A stretch of 64,000 bases of DNA from Tribonema minus (taxonomy: Eukaryota > Sar > Xanthophyceae > Tribonematales > Tribonemataceae): NCBI GenBank assembly GCA_017506865.1, contig JAFCMP010000042.1, positions 186,001 through 250,000 of the forward strand, given 5' to 3'. The position numbers were made by a program, and so were the translations under genes. Below, in pieces: positions 1-64,000 of the stretch. The stretch's first letter is position 1; each line of letters opens with the position of its first letter. Below the pieces are notes generated by a model that had not been told where the DNA came from, did no database searches, and saw nothing but the letters and a program-made list of their open reading frames with translations.

Positions 1-3000
1 CCGGCCCTTGGCGAAGAGCACCGCGTCGTGCAGCGTGAGGAACAGCGTGTCGTCGGTTACGTGCTCGTAGAAGCCGCTTCTCTCCAGCAGGTCGCGCTGC
101 GGCCCCTTCCAGTTGGCCAGCAGCAGCTTCACGCCCTTGGCCTCGAAGTCCTGCGGAGCGGTGGAGCGCATTGTGGCGGAGAGAAGTGAGTTGTTTAGCA
201 GTGTGGCGCCACTGGCATGGAGACGTGGGGCGAGTGGGCATTACCGATATGGTACACACAGCCAGCAGCTGCGTTCCGGGTACTGCAACGCATGCAGTTG
301 CTGCTGTGTACTCTCGCAAATGTGAACAGCTATTGAATTATGCGCCGCGGTGATGATGACTGCAATACTTGCAAGCTTACAACGCTTGAAAACTCATGCA
401 CACTATGCCAAGTCGTGCGCCACATTTACATGCTCTAGGCACGGCGACAGTACCCGTCTGGAACAGTTTGAGGGCACACTTCGAAGACGCGCGCACCGCA
501 GCGCTCAGCAATGAGCTCAGTGGCACGTCACTTCAAGTAAGGTCCAACAAACAAATGGTGACTCGCACCTTGATGAGCTTCAGCAGGCCGCGCAGCGAGC
601 TGCTGTCGATGGTGGTGATGGCGCTGGCGTCGAGCGCGATGGTGTGCACGTCCTTCGTAGCCAGCCGGTCCAGGGTGTCTACCGCCTTCTCCCAGTTGGC
701 AAAGTTGAGGCTGCCGTCGAAGCGCACGGTCTTCACGCCCTGCGTCTCCTTGGCCATGGGGAAGCGCTCAATGTTGCGGTAGACCGCGGTGCCGGGCAGC
801 CTGCGCAGCGGCAAGCAACACACCAGGACTTGAGGAACGCGCGGTGATGGCAGCGTACTGCCGAAGCATTGCGCCTTGTATAGTGTGGTACATGTGCTGT
901 GTTGGGTGATGTGGGTGTGACAGCACATTGGCGAAGGGGAAGCGCTCGATGTTGCAGTGACATTGTGGAGACCAGCAAAAGCTGCATGACGCATCTTCTG
1001 ATGTGAACTTTAGCATCATACACTAGTAAAACAGGCACCCATGCTCATGCTCGCCTGACGGTGCATGTAGTGTGCGCCACAAGCCTACCTACCTACCTCC
1101 GACAAGGGTATCTAGGGCAGCGCACCTGCTGAGCATGGCTACCTGCTGAGCACTCGTCTACCAAGGTGGGTAGGTAGGTATACATCTGCTAAGCATTCAT
1201 AGATTTTCAAAAAGCGGCAGGTACGTAGTGTGCTGCAACACACCTGCCGAGCACCACGATTTTGGCGGAGGCGGAGCGCCACAGCACGATGAGCAAGGCC
1301 AGGCCGATGCCGGCGTAGATGCCGTACATGGCGCCACCAAGCAGGCACACGATGAATGTCAGCATCCACACGGCGAAGTCCGCCTTGCTGGTGGTGTAGT
1401 ACTTGGCACCGTGGTCGAATTCCAGCATGGCCCCTGCAGAATTTGCATACGCAGGTGGAGACGTTCAGCGAGGAAGCAAGTGAATAACAAACAAAATGAC
1501 GCTTGTCATTGATGCCAGGAACTGCTGCACACCAATGTCAGCGGCCACACACTTGTGAAGTGCGACCGCTGTACATAACTTTGCAACGGTACTGCTTCAA
1601 GTGATGGCAGACTTGCCCCTAAAGAAGCCAAGAACTGGAGCGCATGACTTGTGCAATTGCACGAGCGGTGCTCAAAGCTATGACAAAGTGCTGGCGGTGC
1701 TGCACGCATAAACACGCCCTCTGAGGACACACAGATGCTTTGCTATGCATGCGCACCGGCTGCATGCCCCTTGCATCAGGCATGAATTTCAAGAAGTGCA
1801 CCGTGATGCATAGACCAACTTCAAGCTTGCACAAGTGTTCATGTGATCATAACATGATAAAATCATTCCTCCACCTGACTGTTCAAGTAAACAGATGAAC
1901 ATGGTGACTATTCCAAGGCTCTCTCACCGAGCGCGTTGATGACAATCACGGCGAGTATGCACTTGGGCAGGTAGTACAGCTGCTCCGTGATGAGCGTCAC
2001 CGCTAGTATCATCAGCACGAGCGCCATGACGTTGTGCAGCACCGTCTTGGCGCCGAGCGTGTTCACCACGGCCGTGCGCGAGAACGACGCGCTGCAGATG
2101 AAAGCGCCGCACATGGACGAGACGGCGTTCGCGGTGCCGACTGCGAGCAGCTCCTGCGACGCGTCGACCTTGTAGCCGTTCTTCCCCGCGAAGAACGTTC
2201 CCAGCGACAGCGTCATGACGTAGACAAAGAGCGCGATGAGGAAGCTCGGCACGATGGACTTGGCAAACAGCTGGCCGTGCGTGTGCCCGGGTACATCGGG
2301 CAGCGAGGGGAACTCGGCGGTGGGGAAGCCCGAGGGGATGTCGCCGATGACCTGGTGGGGGTAGGCAGGTATCTGGTGAGTTAGGACAAGTACATCCTGA
2401 CGACGGCGTTCGAAGCAGCAGTGCCTGAACGTTGTGCACGAGTCAGCTAGGCATCGTCGAACTGGTTTTTCGCGTTGACTCACAAGGCAGCTGTCACTAT
2501 AGTTTTTTGTGCCGTTGCGATCTGGACGACGGCCAAGTGTTCAGCATTCTGTGAATAGTGCCAAGATGTCTGAAATGACCCAGATGATTACTCATGGGCG
2601 TTTGTCCAGCAGACAAGGGAGGGAATACTGTTGCACGGTGCACACAGGAGTGACCTGCGCTGACTGCGCTATTCAAGTGGCCCTTGAAACGGGATGCCAG
2701 CTGAATCAATCGCGCACGTCAGTACTGCTGCCAATGACTATGCGCACACCTTTTACAATCAACCGGAATTTGATGCAACGCTCAGCACGCCGTGGTCGTG
2801 TTGGCAAGTGGGCGCAGGCTGCCTTTGCTCTGCGCGACATTTTCACAAGCACGGCGCCCACAGAATGGTCGCACGCGTCAGTACTAAGGTTTAGGGTTAC
2901 TTCTGGCCAGCATCGGCCCAACTATCATGCGCAATCAAGTCCAGCGCTCAGCATGATGAGACATCTGTCCAGCACAACAAAACAGCTGGCTCTCGTATGT

Positions 3001-6000
3001 ATGCACATGCTGACAATCTAGCCTTAGCCCCAAGCTGGCCCCGTACATTGCGACAGCGCCTGCCGTGTTCACTGTCGTGCGTGTGCCACCTACCGAGAGC
3101 TTGTAGTCCTCCTTGAGGTCCATCTCCTTGGTGACCACGATGCTCAGTATGACCAGGAAGATCTGCCAGGGCACGGGGTACCTCGGGAAGAACTTTCTGT
3201 TGAGGGTCTGCAAAAGGGTTAGGGTTAGAATGAGGGTCAAAGTTAGGTTTGGCATTAGGACTAGGGTCAGGGTAGGGTCAGGGTAAGGGTTGGGACGAAT
3301 GGCAAGAGGTGCAGAGAAGTGGTTCACCAACGCCAAGACCTATAGAGAAGTGGTTCTCAAAACAAGGGTTAGGGTTAGAGTTAGGTTCAGGGCTAGGGTT
3401 GGGAGGAACGGCAAGAGGTGCAGAGAAATGGCTCACAACATGGTACGCAAACAACGAAGAAGGGGCGCAGGAGCAAGAGTGTGCGCTGCTTAAGGTGCCG
3501 CGTGTGATGCACAGGGCACCTTGGAAGAAGTTTCCTCTTGAAGGTCTGCGCATGAAAGGACGGCAAGAGGCCAGTGAAGCGGCTGACAGAGCGACAGAGT
3601 TGAACATGTGTGTGGGGCAAGGATAGGGACAGTGCTGGGACCGGAGACTGGCAATGGCAACAAGAACAAGTGAGGGAGTTTCGAAACCAAGCAGTGAGCA
3701 CACTAGTTCATGCTACCTTTCAGAGAAAGAGTGTGAAACCAGCATGGGCCTACCGCCACCTTAATCTCGGGCGACTATATGAGTCTAGCTTCATGGTTCA
3801 CTTCTTCAAACGCATACTGCATGCACACATCCACGTGCACTCGCTCACACTGTGTGTATACTCGTACGTCGTCTATTTTTGGAGGCGATGAGGAGCATGA
3901 GATACTGCACTCACCAACCAGTCTAAAACTGTAGGTATACCTGGCAGATGACGAGCAGCACGAGCCCCGTGAGGCCCATGCCGATTGCGCACCAGTTCCA
4001 GTCGTCGAACATCGAGATGGCCTTGGCCCAGAGCTCGGGGAGGAACTCCGAGTTGCCCAGCTTGATGCCGAGGAGACCGCCCAGCTGATGTTGTAGGCAT
4101 ACAAGGAAAGCAGAAGATCAGTGCTCCATATGCAGACGTTATTGTTGTCAGATAGAAGCAAGGCAGATCTTCAAATGCTAAGAGAGGCAGGCAGAAAGGA
4201 GGGTGCTCCAATTACGGTCCACGACAAGAAAGTAGAGAATCCGTGCTCGATTCGCAAAAGTAGAGGAAAGATTAGAAAGTGAGGCAGCCAGCGATTGCCT
4301 CCAAAATAGGCAACAGGCAGGGCTCAGTGCAGATAGTGATCAGCACTTTACATCAGTGCTCCATGCAGCAAGTCAGCGCTCCACCACGCACTGCGCTGTC
4401 AACTACAGCGTCATTGGTGCTGATTGATGCAGCAGCTGTCAGGCAACGCAAGCTTGAACTTCAATGTTCAACTTCAAGTATGAGAGGAGCGGTGACATGC
4501 CACTGCCAAACAGGCCGCTCGACAGCCGCACTCGCACGCAGCAAACAACACGCATTGCTGCAATGGTACACTTTGGCAGGCCACCTCTGCTGCACCGGTG
4601 GTGAACGAACCACACTGGCAATGGTGTTTTTCTCTCCAACACCCAATAGATTTGGTATGTATGCACGGCAATCGTGGCTGAGCACTGCAACAGTACAGCT
4701 GCGCGTTGCCTCACCTGTGATGTGGCGATGATGAAGGCGCCGCCCGTCGAGAAGCCCGACATTACGGGGTCCGCGAGGAGCACTGAAATGAAGTTGAGCT
4801 GCAGGAAGCGGAAGATGAGCTGCCAGATGCCCACCATGAAGCTGCAGCGGCGAGTCGGTCGCAATTGCAGGTGGGTAAAGATGTTGGCAGGTGATGTGCA
4901 GCGTGCTGCAATGGCTTCGACTGCTGGTGCCCATGTTTGCAGGCGCTATCGGAACAGAAATTCGCAGCATAGTCCACCGTCTCCACTCGCAGAACAGACC
5001 AACACAGTGTGCAGGCCGCTTCTGTTGCGCAGACCCAGCTCTAATGCTATCCAGTGCTGTTTTGTGTGATTTGTCAAGTGAAGGTTATACTCAGGCATGC
5101 CAGTGATACTCACTGAGCGCATTGTTGGAATATGGACCTCACTCATATTCTGGTGTCTGATTCAGCATCAGCACTCATCAGTTGCATGCTACGTGATGAC
5201 GTACTTGCGACTACATGTTGAGAATGGTCGTTACATAACGATTACATTTCTCTAGATTCTCCTAGTAAACACTACTGTTCGTTGTTCTGGTCTGGCGCGG
5301 CGCCTGCGCTGGCGCCTGCGGGCTGCCTGCGGCAGGTCTACCTTTGTCTCCTCTCTGCACGGCCTGTGCGTATTCCCAAGAAACATGAGCATCTGCTGTA
5401 GCACGGCCATGTGACGATGATTTTGTTGACGCCACTGCTGTCTGTTCCACCGCAAATGTCAGAGGTCTGGGTATTGCCATGTACTTGTAGCGTACAAGTG
5501 CCAGGTCTGGTTATGACATGGTGGTGCATGCCACCGTGGCTGTGCTTGCACATGTGTATTGACATTCTCTTCTGATACATAGCACTTCCAAGCGGCTGCA
5601 AACCTGCTGTCGGCACTGCATTCCATCAAGCGCACCAGCTGCAACCCTCACCTCCCCCCATCTAACCCTAACCTCAACCCTAACCCTATACCTTTACCTA
5701 CCCTCTAACAAACAGTACGTGCAGTGAAGATTGCCTGCAGCAAACGTTGCCTGCAGGACCCCGCGTTGCTTCACACTTCAGAATGTGAGTGCAGGGGTTT
5801 CTATTCGTTTCTCGCGTAGCCTAAGAGTACGTTTAGACAAAGCTCTAGGGCAGTGCGCTCTGACCTGATGTAGAGTGTGTATCTGACAACAATGTTGACG
5901 TCGGCGTCATCTTCACTCTCTATGATGTCGTCGCCGAGGACGCCCCGCACAGACTCGCCCAGCTGCGGCAGCAGCGAACAGCCAAAGCAGCACGTCTCAG

Positions 6001-9000
6001 CACTGTATACAGCAGACTTTTTACGCAGGCATGCGCCTTGACGATGAGGGCCTCCTGCCAAACACAGTGAAGAGTATTAGAGCAGCTGTTTGCAGTGGTG
6101 TCGTTGCTTGCAGCACAGAGGCTCAAAACACGGCGTTCGGTGAGCAGCGTGAGGTACTATTCAAGTTGAAGCTGCTGACAATTGTGCAAAATGAATGTGC
6201 TCTGCTACAGGAAGCATCATTGTTGCTGCGTATGCTACAGCCGACGTCATTGGCTGCTGTCAGATTATAAGTGGCGCTTGTAATGCGCAAATGCGCTGCC
6301 AACACCTGAGATGCAGAGTACTGGGCATGTTGAATCCTGTCTGCTCAATCGCTCTGGGCACTCAAAAGCAGCAGCGCGAACTTGCGCATAAACTTCATCA
6401 CTCACGAGAGCACCATGCGTTCACGTTCCACAGAACTTCAACTTCAACTCACAAAGAGCGCCTCGATGGCAGTGACGCCGAAGCTGATCTGGGAGCAGGT
6501 GCCCATGAGCATGTAGATGAAAGGCGGCATGAGCGACGTGTAAAGCCCATATTGTGCCGGCATGTTGGCCAACAACGCGTAGGCCAGGCCTGCAACAGAT
6601 GAAACAATTCCATAGATATGTTTACATAATTACAAGCAGGTAGGTTTTATGTCATTTGGTATGGTATGGCTTGCTCTCAAACTTGGGTGAACAGCCCAGT
6701 GCTGTGCAAGCATGATGATCAATGAGGCATAACACAAGCCTGCGGCGGAGCACAAACACGCGACGCAGACGGCTATGCAGCACGGGCGCAGTGCAAAGCA
6801 TGCAGTCACAAGCAGCAGCAACCCCGAGGTATTGGTCATGGTCTCTCACCAAAGTGTCTGCATCTAGACACCTGAATCTTAACGCCATGATTTCATTTGC
6901 ACGTTCAGTAGCAGTAGCTGGATGCAATTACCACCGTGACAGCGCCCACCACCAGTGCTGTGTGTGCATGTCATTCAAGGGCAGGCCTGACCATGAATGA
7001 GTTGCATCATGCTTGAAAGCACGCGGCGGGACCCTCGCCGTGCCTCACTCCAGCCGCATGCCCTCCAGAGCTCAAATGCAGTCATTCATTTCCTTGTGCA
7101 TGCTTAGTGCACTTGTTTGAACGTCAATGATGCTCGCATTGGTCCGGCGCAAGCATCCCGCAAGCCCGAATTCACTACGTCATCAAATCATTCATGAATT
7201 CATGTACCCGATGGGACTTTCGTGATGCCCTCCATCAGCCCCGCGCCCGCATTGTGCAAGATGCACGCCTTTTTGCAGACATTCACTGTTTCATGAATTC
7301 ATTCATGTATGTGTGTACCTGATCGGACTTTGATGGTGCACTCAACCAAGCCCGCGCCCGCGCTGTGCAAGATGCACTCCCTTCTGCAGACATGCACTGT
7401 ATTATCAATTCATTCATGAATTCATGTACCTGATGGGACCTTCATGATGCCCTCCACCAGCCCCGCGCCAATGTCGTACGCAATGTACGCCCCTTTGCAG
7501 ACATTAATTGTAGTATCAATTCATTCATGAATTCATGTACCTGATGGGACCTTCATGATGCCCTCCACCAGCCCCGCGCCTGCGTCGTGCGAGACGTAGG
7601 ACTTCTTGTAGTTGGCGACGGTCTTGACGATGGGAAAGGGCTGTGCGGCCATTGCTGCGACGTCACGCGCGGAGTGAACCTCGGAGGCCCTGATGCATCA
7701 AGCAGCATACGGTAGGTATTCAGCGACCGGCGCTGTGATGCGCAGCAGCTCAGGGAATGCAGGCAGTCTATGGGAGCCGGTAGGGTGCGGCTGTCACTTT
7801 CCGCCCCGAGTGAGCCTCGAAGGCCCTTGTGGATTGAGAAGCAAATGCCAGCAAACGTGTGAAGTACATGCAACTTCAACTGTGGTACGCTGCCGCACAG
7901 GAAGGCATGCAAGTCACCGGGAACGTTATAGTCCTTGATGCGTTAAGCAGCATACGGTAGGTGTTCAGTGCCCATGGAGGCTGCGGAGCGCTGCAGCGCA
8001 AACGGCAGACAGTTGGCGAGCAAGGGCTGTGCGGCCATCCTTGTGACGTCTCTTGGATTCCCTCATGAGTCAGGCAGCGTACAGTAGGTATGCAGCGACC
8101 ATGTGGGCTGCAGAGCACCGCAGTGCGGAAAGCAGGCAAGCAATGAGGGCCGCGCGGCGATCGCTGCGATGCCCTGCGCGGAACGAAGCGCGGACATCTG
8201 TCAAAGTCAAGCAACATGCGGTATGTATGCAGCAGCTATGTAGGACACAGAGCATTGCAGTGCAGAAGGCAGGCAGGCAGGGCAGTCATAGCGGCGCGGC
8301 CATCGCTTCAGCCATCACTGTGGATGTCCCGCGCGGAGTGAACCTCAGAGGCAATGTCGAGGCGAACAGCATGTGGTAGGTCTAGTAACAAGGCAGGCGA
8401 CGGCGCTCTGTCGCTCAAAACAAAACAGGCAGTCATTGATGAGTTCCGCCTCAGCATCGTCAACAGGAGCAATTGCACTGTGGCGCGCTGCAGGAGTTGA
8501 TTGGAAGACGGTGACGCATCAACCTTTAGAGCAATACGCGTACGCATATTCCACTCCCCAAACGCGTGCTGCGCTCGCTTCCGTCACTCACCGTTTGTAG
8601 ATGCGGCGGACCTGCTTCTTGAAGTAGGTTTTGACGGTTGCCCAGTCATTTGCAATTGCCTCTTTCACGGTCATCCGGCTGCAGCAGTGCACAGCGGGGA
8701 TAGCAGGCGACAGTACTGTAAGACAACGCTCAGCAGATGACCTCAAATATGAAGTTTCAGTTTGCAGTGGGCGTCGCCGAGAGAGGACCAGTGGCAGGCG
8801 TGCAACCTCACCAGCAACAGGAGAGTACCAGACATCATTGCAGAAGGCATTTCACTTGACCGGAGCACATATGGCGTGCCCCACCCACCACATGCTATGA
8901 CTTTTCAAGCCTACATGCCAACCATTGACGTACCTGCCAATGAAACGCGGCCCGCAAAAGTTTGAATCAATCCCGCAAAAGTTTGAATCACACCTACCCT

Positions 9001-9148
9001 CCATGGAGCGTAGCCCCCGCACGCACCTGCTGATGAAGCGCGGCCCCGCAAACTGCTGGTGCAGGTCCGCCTCCGTGGTGAGCGTCGCGTTGCCGCTGCC
9101 GGGCGGGTGGTCCCCCCAGCTGTCTGCGCGCTTTCTGCACGCTGTCAT
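1..9148 (-). CDS. SulP/SLC26-family anion (sulfate) transporter with STAS domain, copy 1, 3' end outside window
   Basis: Twelve of 13 exons are visible: 9148-9027, 8678-8592, 7689-7541, 6589-6453, 5962-5865, 4841-4715, 4084-3941, 3207-3094, 2351-1928, 1433-1244, 800-569 and 150-1 (cut by the window edge). All junctions are GT-AG and the phases agree, giving 658 residues. The start ATG at 9148 is chosen by alignment with copy 2. Family signs are a TM1-type block reading GLAYALLANMPAQYGLY, the stretch SASFSRTAV..LGAKT in the transport core, and a C-terminal STAS domain beginning YRNIERFP and containing IDSSSLRGLL. SulP proteins move sulfate or related anions across a membrane by symport or exchange. 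The substrate and membrane (plasma membrane or plastid envelope) are not shown here. The gene is divergent from gene A and inverted relative to copy 2; exon 9 is roughly 85% identical between the copies by eye. Introns carry degraded copies of the neighbouring exon edges. Confidence 0.94.
926..965 (-). repeat. Degraded copy of SulP copy 1 exon 11 segment inside intron 10
   Basis: Read on the minus strand, this stretch repeats the exon 11 part that encodes YRNIERFPMA, with several substitutions. It lies upstream, in transcript order, of the true exon (800-569). It is too short and altered to serve as an exon. Confidence 0.7.
3214..3560 (-). repeat. Telomere-like hexamers plus degraded copies of the exon 8 acceptor edge (SulP copy 1, intron 7)
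   Basis: On the plus strand the stretch is rich in TTAGGG variants (3214-3290 and 3367-3402), each followed by a similar block containing GGCAAGAGGTGCAGAGAA (near 3300 and 3410). At about 3507-3552 the minus strand shows a degraded copy of the intron 7/exon 8 junction: a CGCAG acceptor-like site followed by sequence like the start of exon 8. In sense orientation the hexamers read CCCTAA and lie just before the true acceptor of exon 8 at 3208. Confidence 0.75.
7180..7540 (-). repeat. Tandem copies of the exon 3 end plus donor (SulP copy 1, intron 3)
   Basis: Three extra, progressively degraded copies of the end of exon 3, its donor and the first intron bases follow the true exon (7689-7541). 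On the plus strand they are recognised by TCATGTACCTGATGGGAC and variants near 7205, 7315 and 7425, with the true donor near 7535. Spacing is about 100-125 bp. They contain the coding tail GLVEGIMKVPSG in decayed form. Confidence 0.85.
7700..8390 (-). repeat. Tandem copies of the intron 2/exon 3 junction (SulP copy 1)
   Basis: About four degraded copies of the acceptor side of exon 3 precede the true exon in transcript order. They share plus-strand landmarks such as GCATACGGTAGGT (near 7706, 7950, 8075, 8213 and 8370) and GGGCTGTGCGGCCAT. Spacing is irregular, 120-250 bp. Frames are broken in most copies. Confidence 0.8.
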
Positions 9149-9169
9149 CGTAGCACTGCGGAGAGAGGG

Positions 9170-10229: not shown

Positions 10230-10311
10230 GCAGGAATGTGGGAATGTGTTGATTCAAAAATGTAATGCTTGTAGGAATGCGGGAATGTGTTGATTCAAAA
10301 ATGTAATGCTT
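10230..10311 (+). repeat. 41-bp direct tandem repeat, two copies
   Basis: Copies 10230-10270 and 10271-10311 are almost identical, differing at about two positions. Both contain GGGAATGTGTTGATTCAAAA. No coding role is visible. Confidence 0.9.
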
Positions 10312-14031: not shown

Positions 14032-14068
14032 GTTAGGGTTAGGGTTAGGGTTAGGGTTAGGGTTAGGG
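14032..14068 (+). repeat. Short perfect (TTAGGG)n array
   Basis: About six uninterrupted TTAGGG units lie some 340 bp before the gene A exon at 14412. This is the cleanest interstitial telomere-type array in the window. Confidence 0.95.
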
Positions 14069-43200: not shown

Positions 43201-46200
43201 AGTATATACTTTTATGCGCGTCTGATGTGGAAATGACACCATCTCATGTATGGCCCATCACCGCCGCCGCTACAGCCGCCGCGGGTTTGGACGCCGCATG
43301 GAGCTATGTGGAGGGCGCCATGGGTAGTATACACATGTGTCTGCAAGTCTCCGTCGCACTTCCAAGTGCACGACTTTGATTGATGATCGTATCTATCATG
43401 TGCTGTTGACACTGCGGGCTTACGGCTCACCATCCTGTTCATGCAGCCGCCACCGGTTTGGATGCCGCGTGGAGCGATGTGGAGGGCGCCATGGATATCA
43501 TGCACAAACCTGTATAAACCGAAGTGTGATAGAAGAGTATAGTTTATAAATGCGCGTCTCATGTGGAAATCACACCACGTCATGTATTGCCCATCGCCGC
43601 TGCCGCTACAGCCGTCACTGGTCTGGAAGCTGCGTGGAGCGATGTGGAGGGCGCCATGGAGGCGGCCTGGCAGGAAGCCAAGGCCAGCGACGACCCGGAG
43701 CTCGTCAAGATCTGGGAAGATGTAAGAGTTGGGGTTAGGGGTAGGGCTAGGGTTGGGGCTAGGGGTAAGGGCTAGGGTTAGGGTTATCAGTTCTCATCAT
43801 GAGCATTAGGGTCAAGATCTGGGAAGATGTAAGAGTTAGGGTTAGGGTTAGGGTTAGGGCTAGGGTCAGGGTTAGGGTTACCAGTTCTCATCATGAGCAT
43901 GAGCATTAGGGTTAGGGTGATGGTCAAGATCTGGGAAGATGTAAGGGTCAGGGTCAGGGTAGGGCTAGGGTTAGGGTTACGAGCTTTCATAATGAGCATC
44001 AGAAAGGATCGTAACGCGTGTTAGGGTTAGGGTCAGGTTACGAACCCTCGTCATGAGCGTCAAAAGAGATTCTAAGGTGTACGAGTACTGGCGCTACGTG
44101 GAAGTGAAGCCAAGGGATGTGCAAGCCTGATACAGTAATGTCTGCAGGAACCGGAGCCCGTCATATTATTAGAGGACGTAACGGAAGTGCTGGAACGCTT
44201 CTTCAGGGCCTGTGCAACCGACAAGGGTTAGGGTTAGGGTTTGGGTTAGGGTCAGGCGTCAGAACCATGGCAGTAGTTTCTTCAGCATGTTACTGGCGGG
44301 GCGCCTGTGTCAGTCTGGACTTCAAAGCAGTAATATCTTCTGTATGTTACTGGCGGGACGTTCGCTGGCGCGCCAACACTGCTCTCCAAGCAGAGGGTAT
44401 GCACGTATATCACATATGTGCTTGCAGCACGCAGGACTCCTCTACCTCTACAACACAAAATAGTGTCGCTGCCTGGATAATAAAAATTCAGGGCCAGAGT
44501 TATGTGGCAGCACGTGAACACTATTTTTACGCTCACAGGGGCAATGACAGCGATGGTGAGGCACAGGGTTGACGTTAGGGCTAGGGTTAGTTTGCGCTGC
44601 GAGGGCTAGGGGTGGGATTAGGGTTACGGTGAGGTTAGTGAAGGTTAGGGATCCAGTTAGGCTGAGGATTAGGGTTGGGGTCAGGGTTATGGTGAGGGGT
44701 GAGTGGGGGTTAGGGGTCAGGATTAGGGTTAGTCTTAAGGATTAGGGTCGCTGCGCGTGCGGAGGTTGGGGCGCGTAGGGTTAGGGTTAGGGTTAGAGTT
44801 AGGGTTAGCACGGCAGGACTTGCAATGAAGGGCTTGTCTGCTTGGTAAGCGGTGCATGGGGCAGGGGACGCACAGCAGTGCTCAGCATCAATGGAACCAA
44901 CGAGCTCAGAGCGTTCGAATCGATGCGCAAGCATGCACAGCAGCGCTAGCACCGCCTCAGAGCGCTGCCCCCGTGATGAATGACAATGACCGTGCTGTTA
45001 CTGTCATCATAGTGATGATGAACAAGTTCAGAACAATCAATGACAAGCACGCACTTTTCATTAAAACAACAAGTATTCTGACCCCCAATCGCGCGCTCCC
45101 CCCCCCCCCTCATCCCCCACCCCGCACAGCCCGACGCACAACGGGAGCCCCTGGAAGACGTATGGGCGCGCACGGCCGCAAAGCTCGAGGCCATGGGCGG
45201 CGAGACGCTCCCCAATGGCGAGGTACGTGGGTATGTATATCATGTTGGTTTAGTTGGGTAGATGCTTACCTATGAGTGTCTTAAAATCGTCTTCAAAGCT
45301 CGAGGCCATGGGCGGCGAGACGCTCCCCAACGGCGAGGTATGTGGCTATGTGTTAGTTTTGTTGAGGTAGGTAGATGCGTTAGGTAGGTAGATGCCTACC
45401 AGTTCTAAAAATTCTTTTGAAAATCGTCTCAAGCTGGAGGCTATGGGCGGAGCTACCCAACGGCGCGGTACGCGGGTATGTATGCTTCCAGTATGGTAGA
45501 TACCTGCCTGCCATTGTTTCTGCGCTTGAGGCGATGGGTGGCGAGATGCTCCCCAACGGCAAGGTCTGTGGGTATGTATGACGCTGCTTCAAGGTACGTA
45601 CCTACCTGCCAGTGTCTCTGTGATGCTAGTAAGCTAGACACCTACCTGCCAGCGTCCCAAAAATTCTCTTCGAAGCTCGAGGCTATCGGCAGCCAGATGC
45701 TCCCCAACTGATGGGATGCCAGCAAGGTAGATGCCTGCCTACTGGAGGACAACACGTATGTGGGCGTGTTTGGTGCTTTCAGAGCAACGGTAATTGGCAG
45801 CCACCTGTTTCCTGTGGGTTCCTCTTGTCGCCATGCTTTTGGTTGGTATACTGAGCACGCACCCGTTGCTCATCCGTTCTTTGTTGCCATTGCTTTGATT
45901 GTGATCTTATTTGGAAACTCACCTGCCTCTTCGTCTGTGTTGCAACACTCGGCGAACAGCGCGCGCTTGAGCCGTACGCGTTCCAGGACAAGAACCCCTA
46001 CATGGACGCCGACCAGTGTCCGGACGCGTTCGCGGCGGGCATGCAGCACTTCAGAGAGGTGAGGCAGCGCTCATCGCCTGCCCAGGATAGCATATAAGCA
46101 TATATCATGGCAGCACTCAGCGCCATACTGAGTGCCCGGACGCGTTTGCCACGGGCATGCCGTGCTTCGAGAGGTGAGGCAACGCTCAGGGTCAGAGTTA

Positions 46201-49200
46201 TGAATAGCGGTGAGTAACCCTAACGACATGCAGCACTTCACGAGAGGTGAGGCAGCGCTCACTACCAGTTGGTCCAAGCGCGGCAATGCGGTTGTGTCAA
46301 TCTGTACTGACGCCAAACACGTCCAAGTGGCATATGCACATGATGATGCGCCAAGTGTACAAATGCGATACCACCCTCTACATGTGCATTCGCCGTTGAA
46401 AGTCATTTGGCAGCGCTCACCTACGCCATGTCTCCTTTGCGTGCGCGCCGTGCAGGGCAACATTGCGGACGCGGTGCTGTGCTTTGAGGCGGAGCTGCAG
46501 AGGTATGTATGTATACATGTGTGTGTTTCATGTACCTTTTCTGATTCCTCGCTGAGGGCTTGTGTGTGTTCCTGGGGCTCATATGCATACTTCCAAACTC
46601 GTTCTTGCGTACCATCACCAACCGCAGCGAGAAGGCGCTGAGATGAGGGGCATGTAGGTATGTATCTGTTGTGCAAATAGTATTCTGTACTTCAATGTAA
46701 ATAGTTCGTTACTCTACATGAAAGTACGCGCGCTGATAGCCAACAGCAACCGCAGCGAGAAGGCGCTGCCGGTGTATGAGGTATGTAGGTATGAGTTGGC
46801 GTGTGAGCAGTCGTTTCTACTCTGAGGTGACGTCTCCTCCTGCATCAGCGCCGCCGGAAACCCGTGTTTTGACGTCTCTTCGTGCACAAACGCTGTTCCA
46901 GTGTTTTGTCCGTCGTGAATGATTGCAGCGTGCGCCTGTCTGCTCAGGGCATGCCCAAAACTGTTGCTCGCTACCGTGTGTCAGGAGAGATCTACAGTTG
47001 AGGCGTGACAGCAACCCTAACCCTACGAACATGACATTTAGAGCGCACTGCCGCGGCACGCTTCACATGCGCGTCACAGCGGCCGTGGCAAGCAGCCTCT
47101 TGCACGCTGCGCAGGCGATTAAAACCTGGACCTAGACGTTTCAGGGATGAAGTGAGCTGCTATTTAAACCTCAACTTCTGGCTGTAGTCATTTCAAGTTC
47201 AACTGCTGCAGTGCTCCTCTATGCTCATGAAGGTGCGTCGCTCCCGCTGCTGCGCCGGCGTTGGCCTTCGTCTTTCGGATGGCAAGAACCTGCAAGCTCA
47301 ACTTCAACTTCAACTGTTGCTGCCCTTTGGCACTGTTCACCAGTGCGAACTTCTCTGTAACTGTCGCTGCTGCTGTGCCATGGCGCAGGCACCCCGACAG
47401 CAGCGAGGCCTGGCGAATGCTCGGGCAGAGCCATGCAGAGAACGATCAGGTGCGCTTTGAACCTCAACTCCAACCTGCTGTGTGGATTGGTACTTTTATT
47501 ATATTCCACTTGTGGCTGTGGAAATGCCATGTTGTAGGTGTGTCGCCTTGTTCTCACTCTTGGATGTAGCATGCAAAGCTTGCACGCCACACCCCGCCCC
47601 CCACATCACCCCCAACAAAGCACCCGCAAGCGACTGTCCCCCACATACTAGCAGGGATACCAAACAAAGCTGCAAGACTCTCCCCCCACAGACAGACCCG
47701 TCTTAGGGCCACCCAGCTCCACGCAGACTCCATCTCAAAGTTTTCATGCAGGCCAAGGTCACCATAATGGGCCCTGAACTGGAGATTGTGGCTATCTACG
47801 TGAACCCCGATATCATAAAGATAAGCAGAGGGAGTCACTGGGCGCCAGGCGCTGACGCTAGAAAGAAAGGCTATATAACTAAGCAAAGCATCGCCTCCTT
47901 GATGAGCGGGACGGTGGTTCACCGGGCCTCCCATATCACCCCCAACAAAGCATCCGCAAGCGACTGTCCCCCACACACTAGCAGGGATACCAAACAAAGC
48001 TGCAAGACTCTCCCCCCACAGACAGACCCTTCTAAGGGCCACCCAGCTCCACGCAGACTCCATCTCAAAGTTTTCATGCAGGCCAAGGTCACCATGATGG
48101 GCCCTGAACTGGAGATTGTGGCTATCTACGTGAACCCCGATATCATAGAGATAAGCAGAGGGAGTCACTGGGCGCCAGGCGCTGACGCTAGAGAGAAAGG
48201 CTATATAACTAAGTAAAGCATCGCCTCCTTGATGAGCGAGGTCACGGCTCACCGCAGGCTGCAAGCCTGACAAGATATTGCCATTTACCGCTGCTAGTAA
48301 CTTGTGGTTGGTGCCGTGGCGTGCAGCCGACTCCGCTTGCTCTCCAAGCACGCCAAGCCGCTCCCTGTCCCTCCTCCGCACGCCAGCCAGGGCTTCCGAG
48401 ACACCACCACACGTTTGAAGTTCTCTCGAAGGGGCTACGCACGCTGGCATCACCTGGGGGCCGCTGGTGCTAGCTCCTGCAAGCCCTGCAGCCCAGCCCA
48501 CCCACCAAACCAGCCGCATGTGGATTGGTACTTGTGCAAGTACAATGAGGGGGGGGGGGTTGGGTGCTTTCACCTCGCGCTTTGTGTTTAGGGGCCTTTG
48601 CACTCACGTCGCATGGCACTTAGTTGAGGTTGTCCAGATCACGCGCGGTGTAGGATCCAGCACTGAAGTGCAAACGCATCAAATGAAGAGCACAGCTCGA
48701 ACAGCCAGTACTGGCGAAACGCAGCTTCCTGACCAGCACCCATGCGCTGCCTGTGCCTGCCTCGTGTTTGCTTTCACACCGACATCGCCGCTGTCGCCGC
48801 CGCTGCCATTTTTCGCACTCGTCGTCGCTCATCTACACATCTGCTCCTGCTGCTGCTGCTGCTGCTGCCGCCGCCGCTGCTGCTGCTGCTGCTGCTGCTG
48901 CTGTGCTGCCGCAGGATCGTCTGGCCATTGGCTGTCTGGAACGATCCGTGGAAGCTGATCCCTACAATCTGGAAGCTCTCCTGGCCTTAGGTAAGGGCGG
49001 GGCGAGCATATGAAGTTTTAGTTGAAGTTAGAAGGGGCGAAGAGAGTACAGGTCAAAGTTGAAGATGACACTTGACGACAAATCAATCAAGCCTGAGAGT
49101 CTGACTAACGCCTCAGAACCGCAAGGGTGGGCTGTGTGAACAAGCCGGACTCCACAGGCACGCGCTGCGCAAATCGTGGTTGTCGAGCCAACCTGAGTTT

Positions 49201-52200
49201 GTGACCCTTACCCCCCAAACCTGAGCTTCGTGAATGAACTGGAGTGAACTTCCTCTACCTCAACTACGTCGTCCAACCCTACCATGGTGACTACTGAATA
49301 TTCATATTGCAGGGGTGAGCTACGTGATTGAGCTGGACTCCGCGCGCGGCGCGGTGTGTACTCTCAAGGGAGTTGAACCAACGGCAATCCCCTCATCTGC
49401 CCCTACTCCCACCTAGAACCCTGCCCCTTCCGCCAACCCTACGTGCCCATAACTTGGACCGCGATATGACAGGGGTGAACCCTACCCCTTCCGCCCACCT
49501 TGCCCCTCATTTCCACCCCAAAATGGCAGGGGTGAGCTACGTGAATGAGCTGTACTCTGCGCATGCGCTGCACAAGGCATTGGAGTTGAACTAATTCCAT
49601 TCACGATCCTCAACTGGGATGCAATCCTGCTCGGAACCCTACCTCTTATCTCGACCCTACATGTCTATCACTTTCTTCAACCCTCACACTGCAGGGGTGA
49701 GCTACGTGAACGAGCTGGACTCCGCGCCCGCGCGCTGCGCAAGGCATGGGGGTTGATCTGACAGCAATCCGAACCCTAACCCCACCCCTTATCCTGAACT
49801 CACAACCCTACCCCTTCCTCCAACCTTACCTGCCCCTCATTTCCACCCCAAATTGACAGGAGTGAGCTATGTGAACGAGCTGGACTCCGCGCACGCGCGC
49901 TGCGCAAGGCATGGGGGTTGTACCTAACAGCAATCCGAACCCTAACCCTACCCCTTATCCTAAACTCAGAACCCTCAACCTTCCGTCAGCTAACCCTAGC
50001 ACTAACACTTCAAATCTCACACCGCAGGCGTGAGCTACGTGAACGAGCTGGACTCCGCGCGCGCGCTGCGCAACCTCAAGGCGTGGGTGGAGCACAACCC
50101 CAAGTACGCCGGCCTCGAGCTCAAGCAGGACGCGTACAGCGACGGCACGCTCATGGACGAGGTCGGTGACGCTCCGCAGGTCACATCATTGAAGTTTGAT
50201 ATCGGCATGTTTGAAGTTGGGTGCGTCCTCACGGAGGGTGGCGCTGCTGCTGCCGCAGCAAAAGTGTGTCGCGCGCGCGTGGAAACCCGAGTAGGCCATC
50301 CCGATTCTGGCCGACGTACGACTGCGCGCGCATGGACGAAGCCGGTGACGCTCCGCAGGACATTTTGTTGAAGTAGATGCGCGCGTGAATGGTACCCAGT
50401 TTCTGGCCATCGTGCAACGGCCATTGAGGGCCTCAAGCACAAGCGGGACGCGTACAGTGACGGCATGCTCATGGGGAGGAAGTCGGTGACGCTCCTCAGA
50501 GCACGCATTGTTGACGTTTGTACGCGCATGAAAGAACATGGATGGGCCATCCCTGGTCCTTTGGCTATTGTACGACGGCGCACGCATGGACGAGGCCGGT
50601 GGTGCCCAGCGGAGCACTTTGCGGAAGCGCTGTTGGAGTTTGTGTGCAGTCGGCATGCTTATGGCCGTGGCCGGTGATGCTCTGCAGGCTGCATTTTTGA
50701 AGTTTGTGGATGAGGCTGGAGACGCTCCGCACGATGGCGTGCATGCGTACAGCCCGTGAGCGTTAACCATCATGCGCACTTCACGTACTCCACAGAATGT
50801 ACAGTGTGCGCAGGTGGTGCGGCAGACGCACTCGGCTGAGCAATGATGCACTGCGTCCGCCGGCGTCAATGCACCGACAATGCTCACCATGTCTGCGCGT
50901 CAACTCAGCTGCGCGTTTGACCTGTCGGATTGCCACTTTGGCCGTTTGCACGTGTGCTCGCCACCGTGCGCGTGCAGGTCATGCAGCTCATGCGCTCCGC
51001 TGAGCAATGGGACTTTGTGGACGCCGACGTCGAGGTCGTTGACGATGCTCACCATATTCGTCGATTGATATAGGCGCTGACCTCCTTTCCACACGACCTG
51101 TCAAATTGCCGCTTTGCACATGCCGGTGCAGGTCATGCAGCTCATGCACTCTGCTGAGCAATGGGACACCGCGGACGCCGATGTCAAAGTCGTTCTCGGC
51201 GTGCTCTTCAACGTCAGCCGAGACTACGATGCCGCCGTTGGCGCGTTCCGCGAGGCGCTGCGCCTGCGCCCCGAGGACCATTCCCTGTGGAACAAGCTCG
51301 GCGCGACGCTCGCCAACAGCAATCGCAGCGAGGAGGCGCTGCCCGTGTATGAGGTATGTATGTATGTGTCAGTTGATGCTTCGAGTATGTCAGTAGATTT
51401 TCTCTACGTTACTGCAAAGTATGAGCGCTGATAACCAACAGCAACTGCAGCAGGTTTTGAGGTGAGGGGCATGTATGTATGTATGAGTTGAAACTTCAAA
51501 GTATGCAAGTAGATTTATCCACACTTGGGACGAGACGAGTAAACGAGTACTGTACGAGTACTGGTATGACAATCGTGTACGAGTACTCGTCCTGAACGAG
51601 TACTGCCTCCGGAATGATGTACGAGTACTCGTCGTGTACGAGTATGGCCTCCGAAATCATGTACGAGTACTCGTCCTGTACGAGTACCGCCCCAGGATCC
51701 ATGTACGAGTACTCGTACTGCACGAGTACTGCCTCCGAAATCATGTACGAGTACTCGTACAGTACGAGTCGCTCTGTACGAGTGTTCTACGAGTACGAGT
51801 ACGAGTACGAGTGTTTCGACGAGTAATTGCCATTCATGTTTGTTTTGCGAAAGGTTGTGCGGGTTCTGCCGTGGCGATCGCGCGGTGGCGATCGCGCGTG
51901 GGGCATGCTCCGTAGAGTAGTACTGTGGCGTTGATGCTCTTGACTCCCTTGAAGGAGGTTGCTGATAGAGCACGTCAGCGTGCTGTCGCCATGCACAGAC
52001 CCGCACGTCGTCATGCTCAGCTGGTGCCTCAACCTTGATGCGCGGCTTTCTCATTCCCCAGCATGTGCGCATAGTCCAAGGCTACTGTAGTCCATTTAAA
52101 TAGTCCTATGGAGGTGAGTCTAGCACTGGCTATCCATCTCCGCCCGACCGGCTCATGTTCCGAACATTATGGACACTGAGCCGCCGCTTCAGTAGCGCGA

Positions 52201-55200
52201 GGTCTCAGCGAAACGCACCCCGTGGGGTACCCGTGGTACTCGTACAAGCACTCGTGGTACTCGTACATAGACGAGTACGAGACATTACTCGTACAGTAGC
52301 GGCATTTATGTACGAGTACTCGTCCTGTTCGAGTACGGCCTCCGAAATGATGTACCAGTACTCGTCCTGTATGAGTACTGCCTTCGAAATCATGTACGAG
52401 TACTCGTCCTGTACAAGTACGGCCTCCGAAATCATGTACGAGTTCTCGTACAGTACGAGTACTTGCGTACGAGTGCTTCTACGAGTACAAGTAACGAGTA
52501 AATGACTTGTCTCGTCCCAACTGTGGATTTATCTACTCTAATTCAAATCGAGGGGCATGCATGTATGCATGCATTGATAAGTGAGCAACAGCGACCGCAG
52601 CGAGGCAGCTCTGCCAGTGCATGAGGTCAGGGGCATGCATGTACGTATGCATGTATGTATGCGTTGATAAGTGAGCAACAGCAACCGCAGCGAGGAGGCA
52701 CTGCCGGTGTATGAGGCATGTAGGTATGAGTTGATGTGTGAGAGATGTATGAGATGCGGGGCATGTATGTATGTACCAGCTGATATATAAGTAGTCCTCT
52801 GCTCAGCTCTACTGCAAAGTATGCGTGCTGATGGCCAATGGCAATCACAGCGAGGAGGCGCTGCCGGTGTATGAGGTATGCCGGTATCTGTTGTGTAAGT
52901 AGTCTTCTCTACTTCACTTCAATGTGAGTAGTCTTCTCTATGCTTCTTCATGGTATGCGCGTTGTGGTAGCCAACAGCGACCGCAGCGAGGAGGCGTTGC
53001 CGGTGTGTGAGATATGTACGCATCTGTTGTGTAAGCAGTCTTCTGTCAACTTCAGCTTTTGCCGCCGTCGGTGTTGAAGACCATGTCGCTGGCGAAACGC
53101 GCCCAATGTTTGGGCTAATGATGCTGAGCTGTTGCGCTGTGCGTTCACCTGACGTGCTGCTAGCACTGAAGATCAATCACGTCACTTGCGTAACGCGCGC
53201 AATGCGGGCTGTCGTGCTGTGTGCTCGTGCCGCAGGAAGCACTGAAGCGCAAGCCCAAGTACGCGCGCGCATGGCTCAACCTCGGCATCAGCCAGGCCAA
53301 CCTCAGCCGCTACGAGCAGGTGAGAACCCTCCAGCGCCTACTGGTACTTCAACTTGAGGTTTCAGACTTGTGCTGTAGCGCCCGCACGTCGCTCAACCTC
53401 ATTGCAGCCAGTCGCATGCAGATATGCGCTATGCAGAGTGTATGCAACCGGCCTGCCTTTAGCCCGTACCACCTAGTGCTGGTGCCACGTGTAAACTCTT
53501 ACTCTAAACAACCCTTGCTCTCCTCCATGTGCGCTATGCCAAAGCTGAACGTCGTCATGACACAGAAGAACGCGATGACACCTGCAATGGGAAAGTTCAG
53601 AGACTTCTGCCGATTGTTACATTGCAGCCTCATCCGCTCACAAACACTGTACAGACTTCAACCATGAAGCGTTATTGCACGCGCTGCACCACACTTTAGA
53701 CATCGCTGGTGATTATGCTTTGGAAGGAAGATGCAACGCGGCTGATAGACCACAGTCCTTCCGACACAGCTGATAGGCAGTGTGCAGTGGCTGCGTCAGG
53801 ACTGAATCGCTCTGCTCAAGACCTCAATGCGATGCAGGCTTGTGTCAAAACTCAGGTATAGCCCATGTCGCTCTGTATGTGACCCATCAATCGTGGTGGT
53901 CAGCGCATCAATTCAAACTTCAAGCAGCTCTCCGGTTCGTTTAAGATCTGAATAGCCGTGCCTGTGATCTCTATGCGATGCAGGCTGCGTCCTGCTACAT
54001 GCGTGTGCTGACACTGGGCATGCGATTGTGGGCAGAAAATCCAATTCAGCTGATAAAGCATAGTCCACTGCACTGGCTACTCAGATACTAAATTGCCCTG
54101 CCCGCGAAATCTATATCGTGCAGGCCGCGTCCTGCTACATGCGTGCGCTGACGCTCAACCCCGCCGCCAAGCACATATGGGCATACCTGCGGATCGTCTT
54201 CACATCGATGGATAGGTAAGAGATGCCCGCTTTTCTCAATCCCCTCCCCCCCCCCCCTTTCGAGGTGGATAGGTATGAGACGCCCACTTTTCTGAATCTC
54301 TGCCCCTTCCTATAAGAAACGCCCACTGTTCTCAATCCCCTGTCCCCCCCCTTCCACCCCGCTCCCCCTTGTGAGTGGGGCAATGAACATCTTCGATGAC
54401 AAACACGTTCACGCATGAAAGCCCCGGAAGCACGGCAGTGTACGCTTCGCCGAATGTCATGTGAGCGGCGACAACAAGCGGCAGGGCTCAGCCTTCATCG
54501 TGCCCTTGACGTGGACACATACGAGGGTGCACTTGACATCCACTGTAGGGATGCCTCTGTGAGCATTTCTGGCCTGTGCAGGGTCAAGCGGCCTCCTACC
54601 CGCTAGCACAGCTCTAGACATTTGGCTTGCACCGCGCCGACAGTGATCACGGACTGATGGGGATGCCAGGAACCTCTGACATTCGTCTGCATCGCACCTG
54701 TCCAGACCATGTGTACTTGGGCGGGAACGGCGTGGACTGTTGTTATTAGCCCCTTTCTGTCGCATTGAACAGGCGAATCATTCCTTAGACAGCTCTCACG
54801 TACTTCATGAACACCGTGCACTTTACTGGCGAGCCATACATTTAGCAAATAGCCCCCGCTGTGTATGTTCCACCAGCAAAGCATCCAGTTCATAGCTCCA
54901 CGTGTGAGCATGGGCGCTCATCTTCCAACCCTAAACCTAACCCTAGGCTGTCCACCATTTGTGCATGTCACACACTTCAACTTCAACTGCCGGGCCTGCT
55001 GATGCCCTCACGGCTTGCGCCGGCAGTCAAAACGAGGGCAGATCATATTTTTACAGTCAAATATGACGTGTCTAAGCGCCTGTCCCTGCTGCTGTGTGCC
55101 TGCGTGCAGATTTGACCTGGTTCAGAAAGCCGCGGCCGAGGACGTCACAGTTTTTGACGGCGAGTTTCCCGCCACAGCGCCAAACAGCGGAGTCCAGTTT

Positions 55201-55215: not shown

Positions 55216-56433
55216 GCGGCAGCGTGCAAGCACGCACTGTAAAGAGATCATGGCTACAGTCACAATAGAACAGGATTTGGCGCAGCTGGCTCTGACACAC
55301 AGTCTGTGTTGCGCCCCCCTGTGTTGCGCGCACAGACATTGTGGGTGAATACATGTAGCAGTATGATTTATGTAGACAATGTCAATGTGCTTTTGTGCCT
55401 GGGTGCTATGATCGTTGCCAATACCGGGGTTTTGTTTATTGTCAACTGCAATCATAGACGTACGTCTATATATTCATGATGGTACAGATGCCAAGTGGAG
55501 CTTTTGTGTTGAAAGTCGGCGGTGTCTTGATGCAATTCGCGCTGTTGGTTCTCTCTCTCAGTTTTTTTTTGAAAGGGACTTTTGTTTGGCTTTGCTGACC
55601 AACGAAGGGCAAGCAGCCGACCAGCGTGCAGGTGAACTGACCTGAAACAGAGGGATGCTGACGACCTAGCCATCGCTTGTGTACAAGCAGCTACGACGGG
55701 GTGCGCAGCCAGCGCCGTTTTGCCCAATGATAGTAATGCAGAATTTCATGACCAGCCAGGCGCAGAGAGGTGAGCCATTACAGGTATTTTTCGGGAACTC
55801 CTCACGCGGCATAGATCGCTGCAGACATCCTGTCTGTTTGCACCTCCCAAGAAAGTATGCCGCAGTTGAGCCTGCCTACTCATTACGACAGCGTGTGCAA
55901 CATGTGCATACAGAACCAGACTAATCGATCAATCCAGTTCAGATGTCTTTCGGCACGTCCTTATTACTCAAGAAAAGCTTTTCTGGAAGGCCAACATTGG
56001 CGACTCTAATGGTGCGGTCAAAACTGATGCATACTTGTGCGTATGCAAGACTCACGGTCCGAGGGCGTGTGCAGGTTGCGTTGTGCCATGCAGGCTCCAT
56101 GACATTGTCGTCAAGCAACAACTTGTGTAAAGCGATTCGCTGGCCGCACGGAACCTGATGATCGCAAGCCTCCGGACATTCTCAAGGCGTGCAAGTATAC
56201 CTACCTACCCAACCTATCTCTAAAGATGAGGTTCTGGAAGAGACTTTCGTAACGCCAAATGGCTTTTCTTGCGAGGAGCTCGAACTCTCTCTCAAAACCA
56301 CACCGACAACTTGAGTGCCTGTGCTTTGTATGCGCACCGCTGCGCCTCAGAAGCAGTTTTGCACGTAGCACCTCATACAGCAACATCAACTTGTTGGCGT
56401 ACCGGATCGGGGAATATTCGTTAAGTCGAGGGG
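55216..56433. other. Intergenic region between PEX5 and gene B
   Basis: I see no gene and no strong repeat in this stretch. It must contain the PEX5 3' end and the gene B promoter. A TGTAA, a polyadenylation signal in some green algae, lies at 55238; this is weak evidence. Confidence 0.6.
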
Positions 56434-62400: not shown

Positions 62401-64000
62401 GAACTGACAAGCAGTCTGCAAAGTCTGTATTTGTAGCGCTGTATAATACATGACGTGGTGTCGCTCAAGGCAGTGTAAGGTCTGGCAGTAAGCATGTGTA
62501 GTCGCGCGGCATTGCATGGTAGGTATGGACGCACATACATACATATATACATACATGGTGCACAACAGGATGCTCAGCAGCAAGGTCTGTATGGCGCTCA
62601 CTTGCCCGGTATGTAGTTGTGTCATATGTCATTCTTCAAGTAGCAATAAGGTCAGCGAGGGTAGGCTTGGCCTCATTTGCTGGACAAGGCATGTAGGTAG
62701 TGCGAACTGCAATCAGAACCTACCTCAACAGTGTCACGCGTTCCAGCCTTGAAAAGCATGGGTTTGAGACTTTCAAACTTGTCAAACTGCTCTTCACTGA
62801 TTTGTACCGTGACAGCCAAAGCCAGACATACACGTTCAAGGCTGATGGTCAATGTTTTTATGAAACTCCAGAGCTTGAAGTAGGGACACGAGGCTGATAC
62901 TCTGTGCCATATGTGCCCGCCGCTGCTGCTGCTGCTGCTGCTGCTGTGGGTTGCAGGGATGAGGCTGTGGCTACCATGGAGTCCATGAAGACCACCGTCG
63001 CAGAGGCGGAAGGGGCCATGCGCACTGCAGCAGGTACTTCAACACCTGGCACAATCTTCAACTGTGACTTGCCACTCGCGCTGCAGCAGGTACTTCAACA
63101 ACTGGCCCAAACTTCAACTGTGGCAATAGGCTCTGACATAGCCTCTCATTCTCGGAGTCCAGCCGTAAGCCAACGAGACATTGCTTGCAGGCCATTGCGC
63201 ATGGCACGTCACGTGTGTGACGCGTCTCTGTCATGACCTCTCATCTCGGAAATCAGCCGTTGCTAACGCCCCAGGATAGTGTTCGCAGGCCATTGCCAAT
63301 GTCACATCATGCCTTCACAAACGCAGGTGGTGTGATGCAGGTAGGTGTCTGCCAAGCATGGGTAGGTAGGTATGGCGATTATTAGTATTTGAGCACTGCT
63401 GCGCATTGTTGAGCCATACTGTCACACACATCGGTATCACCAGGTATGTTTCACAGTTGAGCCTTTCGCTACCAGGCATCGAGCCACGTGGCGCTTACGT
63501 TCATTAGTGCAGGCAACACATACCCAAAACGGATTCTCTGCGTGTGTGCGCTGAATGATGTCATTTCTGTATGATATATGACCCTCATGGCAGCTGTACA
63601 GGTTGAGCCGTACTCTCAGCACATGACCACAACGACATCAGCACTATGCATCCTTTGCGTATTGCCTTTTGAAGCAAGTACCAACATTTCCCTCCCCCAC
63701 CTCCTCTACCCTCACCCTCAATGTGTGTCATTGATATCTACGTCCCGCTGCGCAGAGCTCACCGCCGAGCGCGATGCGCTTCAACTGCAAGTGGTGACGC
63801 TCACCACAGCGCTCGACGAAGCCAAGACTTCCCACTGCGCAGAGCTCACCGCAGTGCGAGAGGAACTTCAACTTCAAGCGGTGACGCTCACCACAGCGCT
63901 CAACGAGGCCAAGGTGTCCCACCGCGCAGAGCTCACCGCTGAGCGTGACACACTTCAACTTCAAGTGGTGACGCTCACCACAGCGCTCGACGAGGCCAAG
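56434..64000 (+). CDS. Gene B: membrane-anchored alanine-rich coiled-coil protein, paralogue of gene A, 3' end outside window
   Basis: Exons 56434-57516, 58272-58349, 59265-59336, 60637-62156, 62957-63033 and 63756-64000 (cut by the edge) give 1,025 residues so far with consistent phases. Residues 9-25 (ALSCLAGVILLTKLA..) form a short N-terminal hydrophobic segment. Residues 73-294 contain four imperfect repeats of about 55 residues with cores (V/E)VDATLL or (V/E)VALLL and VLPLQLVAEE. Exon 2 encodes STVCIALALASRIL then RTLRDRRRR, a second likely membrane anchor. Exon 3 ends ATESESESE. Exon 4 is a 507-residue Ala-rich coiled coil, and the last exon starts a 28-residue coiled-coil repeat. Exons 2 (78 nt) and 3 (72 nt) match gene A exactly in length. 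A structural role such as tethering or scaffolding is a guess; no family is recognised. Confidence 0.78.
58415..58825 (+). repeat. Shadow copies of gene B exon 2 end plus donor
   Basis: CTCGCGTATACTGCACA.(A/C)CTCCGTGACCGC followed by AGGTGAGTCAC-type donors occurs near 58417-58455 and 58522-58565; weaker copies are near 58633 and 58812. The true donor is at 58350. Confidence 0.92.
62205..62250 (+). repeat. Shadow copy of gene B exon 4 end plus donor
   Basis: GAGAGTGCGCACAGCGCGGC followed by TCAGCTGGAGAGGTGAGTCA copies the exon 4 tail and its donor (true donor at 62157). Confidence 0.92.
62246..62365. repeat. Inverted repeat built from a splice-donor region (gene B intron 4)
   Basis: The left arm 62246-62285 starts GGTGAGTCAACTTGATGAGG; the right arm 62326-62365 is its reverse complement with one or two mismatches over about 40 bp. 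A third, direct partial copy lies between them (62289-62318). The arms contain the intron 4 donor sequence, so a donor copy was duplicated in inverted orientation. Confidence 0.92.
62915..62947 (+). repeat. CTG run before gene B exon 5
   Basis: About nine CTG or CCG triplets end about ten bases before the acceptor TTGCAG at 62956. It resembles the runs before SulP copy 2 exon 6 and PEX5 exon 14. Confidence 0.9.
63756..64000 (+). repeat. 84-bp coding tandem repeat (28-residue coiled-coil unit) in gene B
   Basis: Three consecutive units encode versions of ELTAERDALQLQVVTLTTAL followed by DEAK and a short linker; the array continues past the window. Hydrophobic residues recur in a heptad-like rhythm. 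Low divergence between units indicates recent expansion or homogenisation. Confidence 0.92.

Follow-up and report, generated by a model that had tools for sequence, protein, structure and literature searches.

The introns of several genes of the yellow-green alga Tribonema minus contain copies of the exon edges that adjoin them, and the arrangement and probable origin of these copies are the focus of this report. The stretch analyzed, referred to as the window, comprises 64,000 nucleotides of one contig of 422,970 bases (C42:186001-250000). It holds three of the genes considered, with 33 introns. Two of these are sulfate transporter genes placed by spliced alignment, SulP1 on the minus strand (window 1-9,130) and SulP2 on the plus strand (window 21,222-31,766). 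The third, also on the plus strand (window 43,612-55,216), was modeled over its last 11 exons and 10 introns, and its putative name, PEX5, comes from our reading of the encoded TPR protein. The same contig also supplied SulP3 (C42:147,882-167,153) and a portion of SulP4 (C42:254,616-259,711), again placed by spliced alignment, which brings the set to five genes and 54 introns. The SulP exon models derive from alignment of deposited or homologous proteins (labeled P0001, P0004, P0003, P0005 and P0002), and the PEX5 exons were read by hand and joined into one open frame.

Copies were sought with probes consisting of the 30 exon bases adjoining a junction, which were slid along the flanking intron and scored as a copy at 20 or more of 30 matches. 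Across the five genes, this procedure detected 70 edge copies (47 of donor edges, 23 of acceptor edges), as compared with 0.30 in dinucleotide-shuffled introns and 0.10 in introns of unrelated genes (PEX5 probes on SulP introns and the reverse). Exon-edge copying is real and far above chance. Both controls rule out chance similarity, including the shuffled introns by which the sequence-only reading of this DNA had proposed that its claim be judged, and copies favor their own flanking intron, as that reading had anticipated; the same gene specificity also rules out a dispersed element. Of the 54 introns, 30 contain one or more copies, and these fall into 34 edge arrays with between 1 and 7 copies each. 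An excess of donor over acceptor copying is apparent in the number of copies, but was rejected, as the edges involved number merely 19 and 15, respectively. The window genes account for 45 of the 70 copies, distributed over 19 of their 33 introns. The earlier statement that most introns of all genes are affected is borne out overall, in PEX5 (6/10 introns) and in SulP2 (9/12), but fails for SulP1 (4/11) and SulP4 (2/8). The SulP2 exons it had singled out (5, 6, 7, 9, 10, 11 and 12) all carry edge copies, and the start of exon 4 does so in addition.

The junction anchors the copies, which also fall on the side expected of them. Probes taken 0-30, 30-60, 60-90 and 90-120 base pairs (bp) inside the exon found 47, 16, 8 and 0 copies from the donor end and 23, 7, 1 and 0 from the acceptor end, and this thinning with depth rules out copying of exon interiors. 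In agreement with the sequence-only reading, copies of exon starts lie upstream and copies of exon ends downstream, in unrelated genes and together with their splice sites; edge probes placed on the introns of the opposite side found 3 copies in 108 introns.

A copy matches its source over roughly 45-75 bp of exon and roughly 60 bp of intron, and whole units, carrying intron plus exon sequence, align head-to-tail. Successive spacings lie within 62-237 bp in 64 of 70 cases (median 139.5 bp), an exception to adjacency being a set of PEX5 copies found 1272-1658 bp from the source edge. In 51 of 63 informative pairs within arrays, similarity is greater for the copy closer to the exon, and the decay with distance described earlier is therefore upheld inside arrays, but over all copies it is weak (Spearman -0.23, p 0.05). 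The splice dinucleotides show no sign of selection: GT is retained in 36/47 donor copies and AG in 18/23 acceptor copies, with 34.4 and 16.7 expected from overall decay, and spacings modulo 3 (26/23/21) reveal no frame preference. Equal spacing within arrays, taken as a sign of homologous expansion, is at most suggestive (p 0.051), and a comparison of intron with exon divergence by gapped alignment has to reckon with a score of 0.71 that random sequence already reaches. An assembly artifact is unlikely for copies differing at many sites. Altogether, 28% of the intron bases in the five genes (13,237/46,616) fall within detected local repeats.

These observations extend beyond the five genes. 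A gene finder trained on them and refined on high-scoring exons was used to predict further exons; at a coding score of 15, it returned 21 false exons on one reversed strand, whereas the two real strands, with the five genes counted in, gave 64 and 55. After removal of low-complexity probes and very short flanks, 100 edges predicted elsewhere than in the five genes were examined; 33 of them carry 85 copies with at least 21 of 30 matches, where 0.42 are expected. Furthermore, chaperonin genes on four contigs were addressed through exons matching PF00118 with predicted edges no more than 25 bp from the profile match, two matches being excluded by hand as copies. Here, 12/36 edges carry 31 copies versus 0.40, of which C5 and C135 contribute 15 each, C235 one and C279 none at 8 edges. 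Profile match tables were also read by eye, in which only scored candidates are listed and smaller ambiguous overlaps were not counted. Among the matches listed, seven clearly copy an exon edge, each on the side expected of it (chaperonin 4/56, kinesin 2/134, myosin 1/97), and no clear edge copy was seen by eye among the 80 HSP70 matches listed. The three chaperonin loci with such copies were confirmed in the DNA.

The SulP paralogs offer a before-and-after view of junction duplication. The start of SulP4 intron 12 aligns to SulP2 intron 12 from base 133, immediately after the copy at 132, and intron 11 likewise aligns from base 93, with a weaker alignment from base 1. Among equivalent introns of SulP1-4, copy number correlates with length (rho 0.44, p 0.003). 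The intron 9 array of SulP2 is alignable with that of SulP3, and thus either predates their split in part or was exchanged between them. The individual arrays are compiled in the table below, among which that of SulP3 exon 11 is the youngest case.

Table. Exon-edge copies and arrays by gene; window coordinates unless prefixed C42, scores in matches per 30 bases, periods from Tandem Repeats Finder (TRF).
Feature	Coordinates	Strand	Description
SulP1 exon 1 donor edge	8934..9027	-	single downstream copy at 93 bp, 21/30
SulP1 exon 3 acceptor edge (7689)	7689..8353	-	copies 136 and 664 bp upstream, AG lost in both
SulP1 exon 3 donor array	7180..7594	-	true donor 7541 and three copies at 111, 222, 333 bp (30, 24, 26 of 30); TRF period 111
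SulP1 exon 8 acceptor edge	3207..3545	-	single weak copy upstream, 20/30
SulP2 exon 4 acceptor edge	23653..23788	+	copy 135 bp upstream, 25/30, with tgcag
SulP2 exon 5 donor copies	24584..24731	+	at 86 bp (30/30) and 148 bp (25/30)
SulP2 exon 6 acceptor copies	25186..25494	+	upstream at 153 bp (29/30) and 308 bp (27/30)
SulP2 exon 7 acceptor copy	26061..26191	+	130 bp upstream, 28/30
SulP2 exon 7 donor copies	26335..26756	+	at 210 bp (28/30) and 422 bp (27/30), both gtgcgt
SulP2 exon 9 acceptor copy	27736..27841	+	105 bp upstream, 29/30; exon 27736-27789 in P0001
SulP2 exon 9 donor array	28218..28511	+	TRF period 123; true donor 28264, with two copies (123 and 247 bp)
SulP2 exon 10 donor copies	29064..29642	+	at 174, 383 and 579 bp; two counted as exons in P0001
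SulP2 exon 11 donor copies	30071..30250	+	at 92 bp (25/30) and 180 bp (20/30)
SulP2 exon 12 donor duplication	30799..31039	+	unit 132 bp; TRF 90% matches; 28/30
PEX5 donor copies, true donor 43721	43722..44177	+	at 219 and 456 bp; another near 43831 by eye
PEX5 donor copies, true donor 45222	45223..45714	+	at 115, 341, 492 bp (29, 26, 21 of 30)
PEX5 acceptor copies, exon at 50028	49125..50028	+	six upstream; TRF period 166 at 49675-50073
PEX5 donor copies, true donor 50161	50162..50594	+	at 179, 318, 433 bp; GT lost in all
PEX5 acceptor copies, exon at 51132	50814..51132	+	upstream at 154 bp (28/30) and 318 bp (23/30)
PEX5 donor copies, exon ending 51353	52596..53011	+	four, 1272-1658 bp downstream, past 42-bp satellite
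PEX5 acceptor copy, exon at 54124	53984..54124	+	140 bp upstream, 27/30
SulP3 exon 11 array (our model)	C42:150636-151436		four near-identical copies, spacing 173-176 bp, seen in assembly

Several additional features of these genes and their surroundings were recorded. The satellite that separates a PEX5 exon edge from its four copies has a 42-bp unit, is rich in GTACGAGTAC and occupies window 51547-51812 and 52308-52462. A tandem duplication of 330 bp, its copies matching at 96%, is located inside a PEX5 intron away from exon edges (window 47596-48238). SulP2 exon 11 (window 29839-30070) and its SulP4 counterpart (C42:255818-256049) encode an identical stretch of 78 residues, although the two genes diverge in other parts, a pattern reminiscent of gene conversion. 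SulP4 is without one intron common to SulP1-3 (C42:258393-258663), and SulP3 has one private intron (C42:159210-160566); birth of the latter by tandem duplication was considered and rejected, the comparisons of its ends (3/20 and 6/20) giving no such signature. Long open frames at window 56725-57260 and 63740-64000 hold tandem repeats of 162 and 87 bp, which indicates that coding sequence, too, is shaped by tandem duplication; a protein search with window 56425-57525 found nothing. Interstitial telomere-like repeats are frequent in C42:1-260000, including window 43728-43880 (TTAGGG 130 versus 28.8 expected, CCCTAA 101 versus 25.9).

We consider it likely that the copies are local tandem duplications of short segments that happened to straddle exon-intron junctions. 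On this reading the duplications are ordinary small ones, and no special element is needed. Similar duplications are also present in the interior of introns and away from modeled exons, which supports it. A duplication spanning a donor would give the exon and its donor, followed by the copy and a second donor, and use of the first donor would leave the mRNA unchanged; the acceptor side would mirror this, the last acceptor being used. With the mRNA unchanged, a junction-spanning duplication would be neutral and the intron would be lengthened. The next event spanning the junction would insert its copy beside the exon and displace older copies outward, which would create a gradient of decay, and such insertion next to the exon fits the greater similarity of the nearer copy in 51 of 63 pairs. 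Since the exon is constrained and the copies would be free to change, the exon part of a unit should stay recognizable for longer than its intron part. As for the joins themselves, 4 of 12 young arrays are clean two-copy cases with microhomology of 1, 2, 0 and 0 bp; the other eight comprise two that score -3 and -4, with mismatches near their ends, and six that are multi-copy or unreadable. The near-blunt joins (0-2 bp) of these few readable cases point to staggered breaks that were filled in and joined.

Several results weigh against this account in its simplest form. Changes shared between copies outnumber those expected from independent origin (34 against 13.8 for 36 adjacent pairs, 24 against 9.6 for 36 other pairs); accordingly, each array arose in part from copies, or the exon was altered later than the copying. 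In certain copies, the exon part is nearly intact and the intron flanks are strongly diverged. The codon-position ratio, used as a test for selection on the copies, is 1.84 in copies and 1.85-2.72 in paralogs and is hence not discriminating. In addition, placement is uneven. When arrays were defined by intron-only similarity, 21 of 35 were edge-linked versus 8.1 under uniform placement, an excess of about 2.5-fold that none of 4000 simulations reached, with a label that partly uses exon-based copy detection and may inflate the edge count. The same tendency is found at 80% identity or more (7/12 versus 2.8 expected, p 0.011) and in the chaperonin genes (5/9 versus 2.4, p 0.058), and the edge share is flat with age (7/12 versus 14/23), which gives no positive support for the one-way retention discussed below. 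Plain uniform duplication is therefore insufficient. In favor of the general account, the remaining 14 of the 35 arrays have no edge copy, although six of these terminate no more than 15 bp from a junction.

The excess at edges in all three comparisons, together with the six arrays that end close to a junction, could mean that duplication is targeted to splice junctions, for instance by breaks or stalled replication tied to transcription, splicing or exon-edge nucleosomes, and that the junction is a mutation hotspot. The wording of the sequence-only reading suggests a junction-specific process of this kind; we regard it as unlikely, given the possible inflation of the edge label and the fact that longer retention at edges predicts an equal excess. 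Moreover, among 12 arrays with at least 92% matches, drawn from the analyzed sequence, whose annotation is incomplete beyond the five genes, only 2 touch a modeled exon edge, whereas 2 lie inside introns of modeled genes and no predicted exon is overlapped by the other 8. As the majority of young arrays detected thus lie away from modeled edges, retention at edges is tentatively favored over a hotspot. Such retention might operate as a ratchet: once a copy has decayed, a deletion fusing exon and copy would harm the exon, while gains would stay neutral, and junction arrays would become harder to lose than interior duplications, which would be free to collapse. More broadly, junctions may be anchors of intron growth, either as duplication hotspots or through irreversibility after copy decay under purifying selection on the exon, and may occasionally supply the protein with ready-made exons that have splice sites; this wider proposal is plausible, though somewhat less likely than not.

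A functional role of the copies, as alternative or mutually exclusive exons or as decoy splice sites under selection, draws on deposited T. minus proteins whose models include copies as exons. P0001 does so at window 27736-27789, 29160-29237 and 29556-29642, and P0003 has five successive occurrences of a single exon end (C42:150644-151266). Such a role is improbable nonetheless, as GT and AG retention matches neutral decay and spacing is blind to frame, while the copies are absent from the alignment to SulP3 of P0005, a homolog whose record name denotes a transcript assembly, and P0002 has none. These cases are a warning that gene models of T. minus can mistake edge copies for exons. Spread of exon edges by an introner-like mobile element or by reinserted spliced RNA would fit the abundance across genes and nothing else, and is highly improbable, since copies match their own gene (0.10 in unrelated introns), are one-sided to the exon and carry the adjoining intron instead of the next exon.

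Junction-straddling duplications have probably helped to lengthen the introns of T. minus, and were presumably tolerated since they do not alter the protein. A concrete route for intron lengthening can thereby be named, and older units that are no longer recognizable would add to the 28% of intron bases in local repeats. The introns may be read as a layered record of duplication, from which the rate, size and polarity of splice-site duplication, and the extent to which it is tolerated, can be measured within one genome.

These arrays can be compared with several known systems. The sequence-only reading had held that no described element or process has this outcome; as regards the process this goes too far, as small tandem duplication from break repair (PMC8355091) and intron gain by tandem genomic duplication (PMC3443670) are both described, but the outcome itself was not found described. 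No account of introns that keep trails of junction-spanning copies was found in full-text literature, mostly outside subscription journals, and the case for novelty of the outcome is accordingly weak. Staggered breaks, once filled in and joined, are a known source of such duplications (PMC8355091), for which insertions described in rice (PMC7407515) are also cited. The T. minus units are head-to-tail duplicates of a contiguous segment beside its source and measure tens to hundreds of bases, both of which they share with the products of break repair, and their behavior resembles small tandem duplication of the end-joining type; the 0-2 bp of microhomology in the four readable cases would be in keeping with this. 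What sets them apart is their accumulation and seemingly preferential survival at splice junctions, and the repair pathway behind them is our inference. With intron gain by duplication, of which a case in potato is also reported (PMC4974935), they have in common that splice-site sequence is duplicated and gene structure changes while the protein can be kept; in T. minus, however, existing introns lengthen, and 0/54 introns reach 13/20 on either comparison for the end repeat expected of a duplication-born intron. The pattern is related to intron gain by tandem genomic duplication, not an instance of it. In the [D] stwintrons of Lipomyces, a donor is duplicated inside an intron and the authors invoke break repair (PMC7138796), but these duplications span 4-7 nucleotides and result in a nested intron, whereas the T. 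minus units are mostly 62-237 bp long and appear inert. Finally, introners are single elements copied into many genes (PMC9860276) and resemble the present case in their genome-wide effect on introns. Dispersal among unrelated genes is not what is seen in T. minus (0.10 versus 70, 0.42 versus 85 and 0.40 versus 31 copies), where, unlike in introners, each copy belongs to its own gene.

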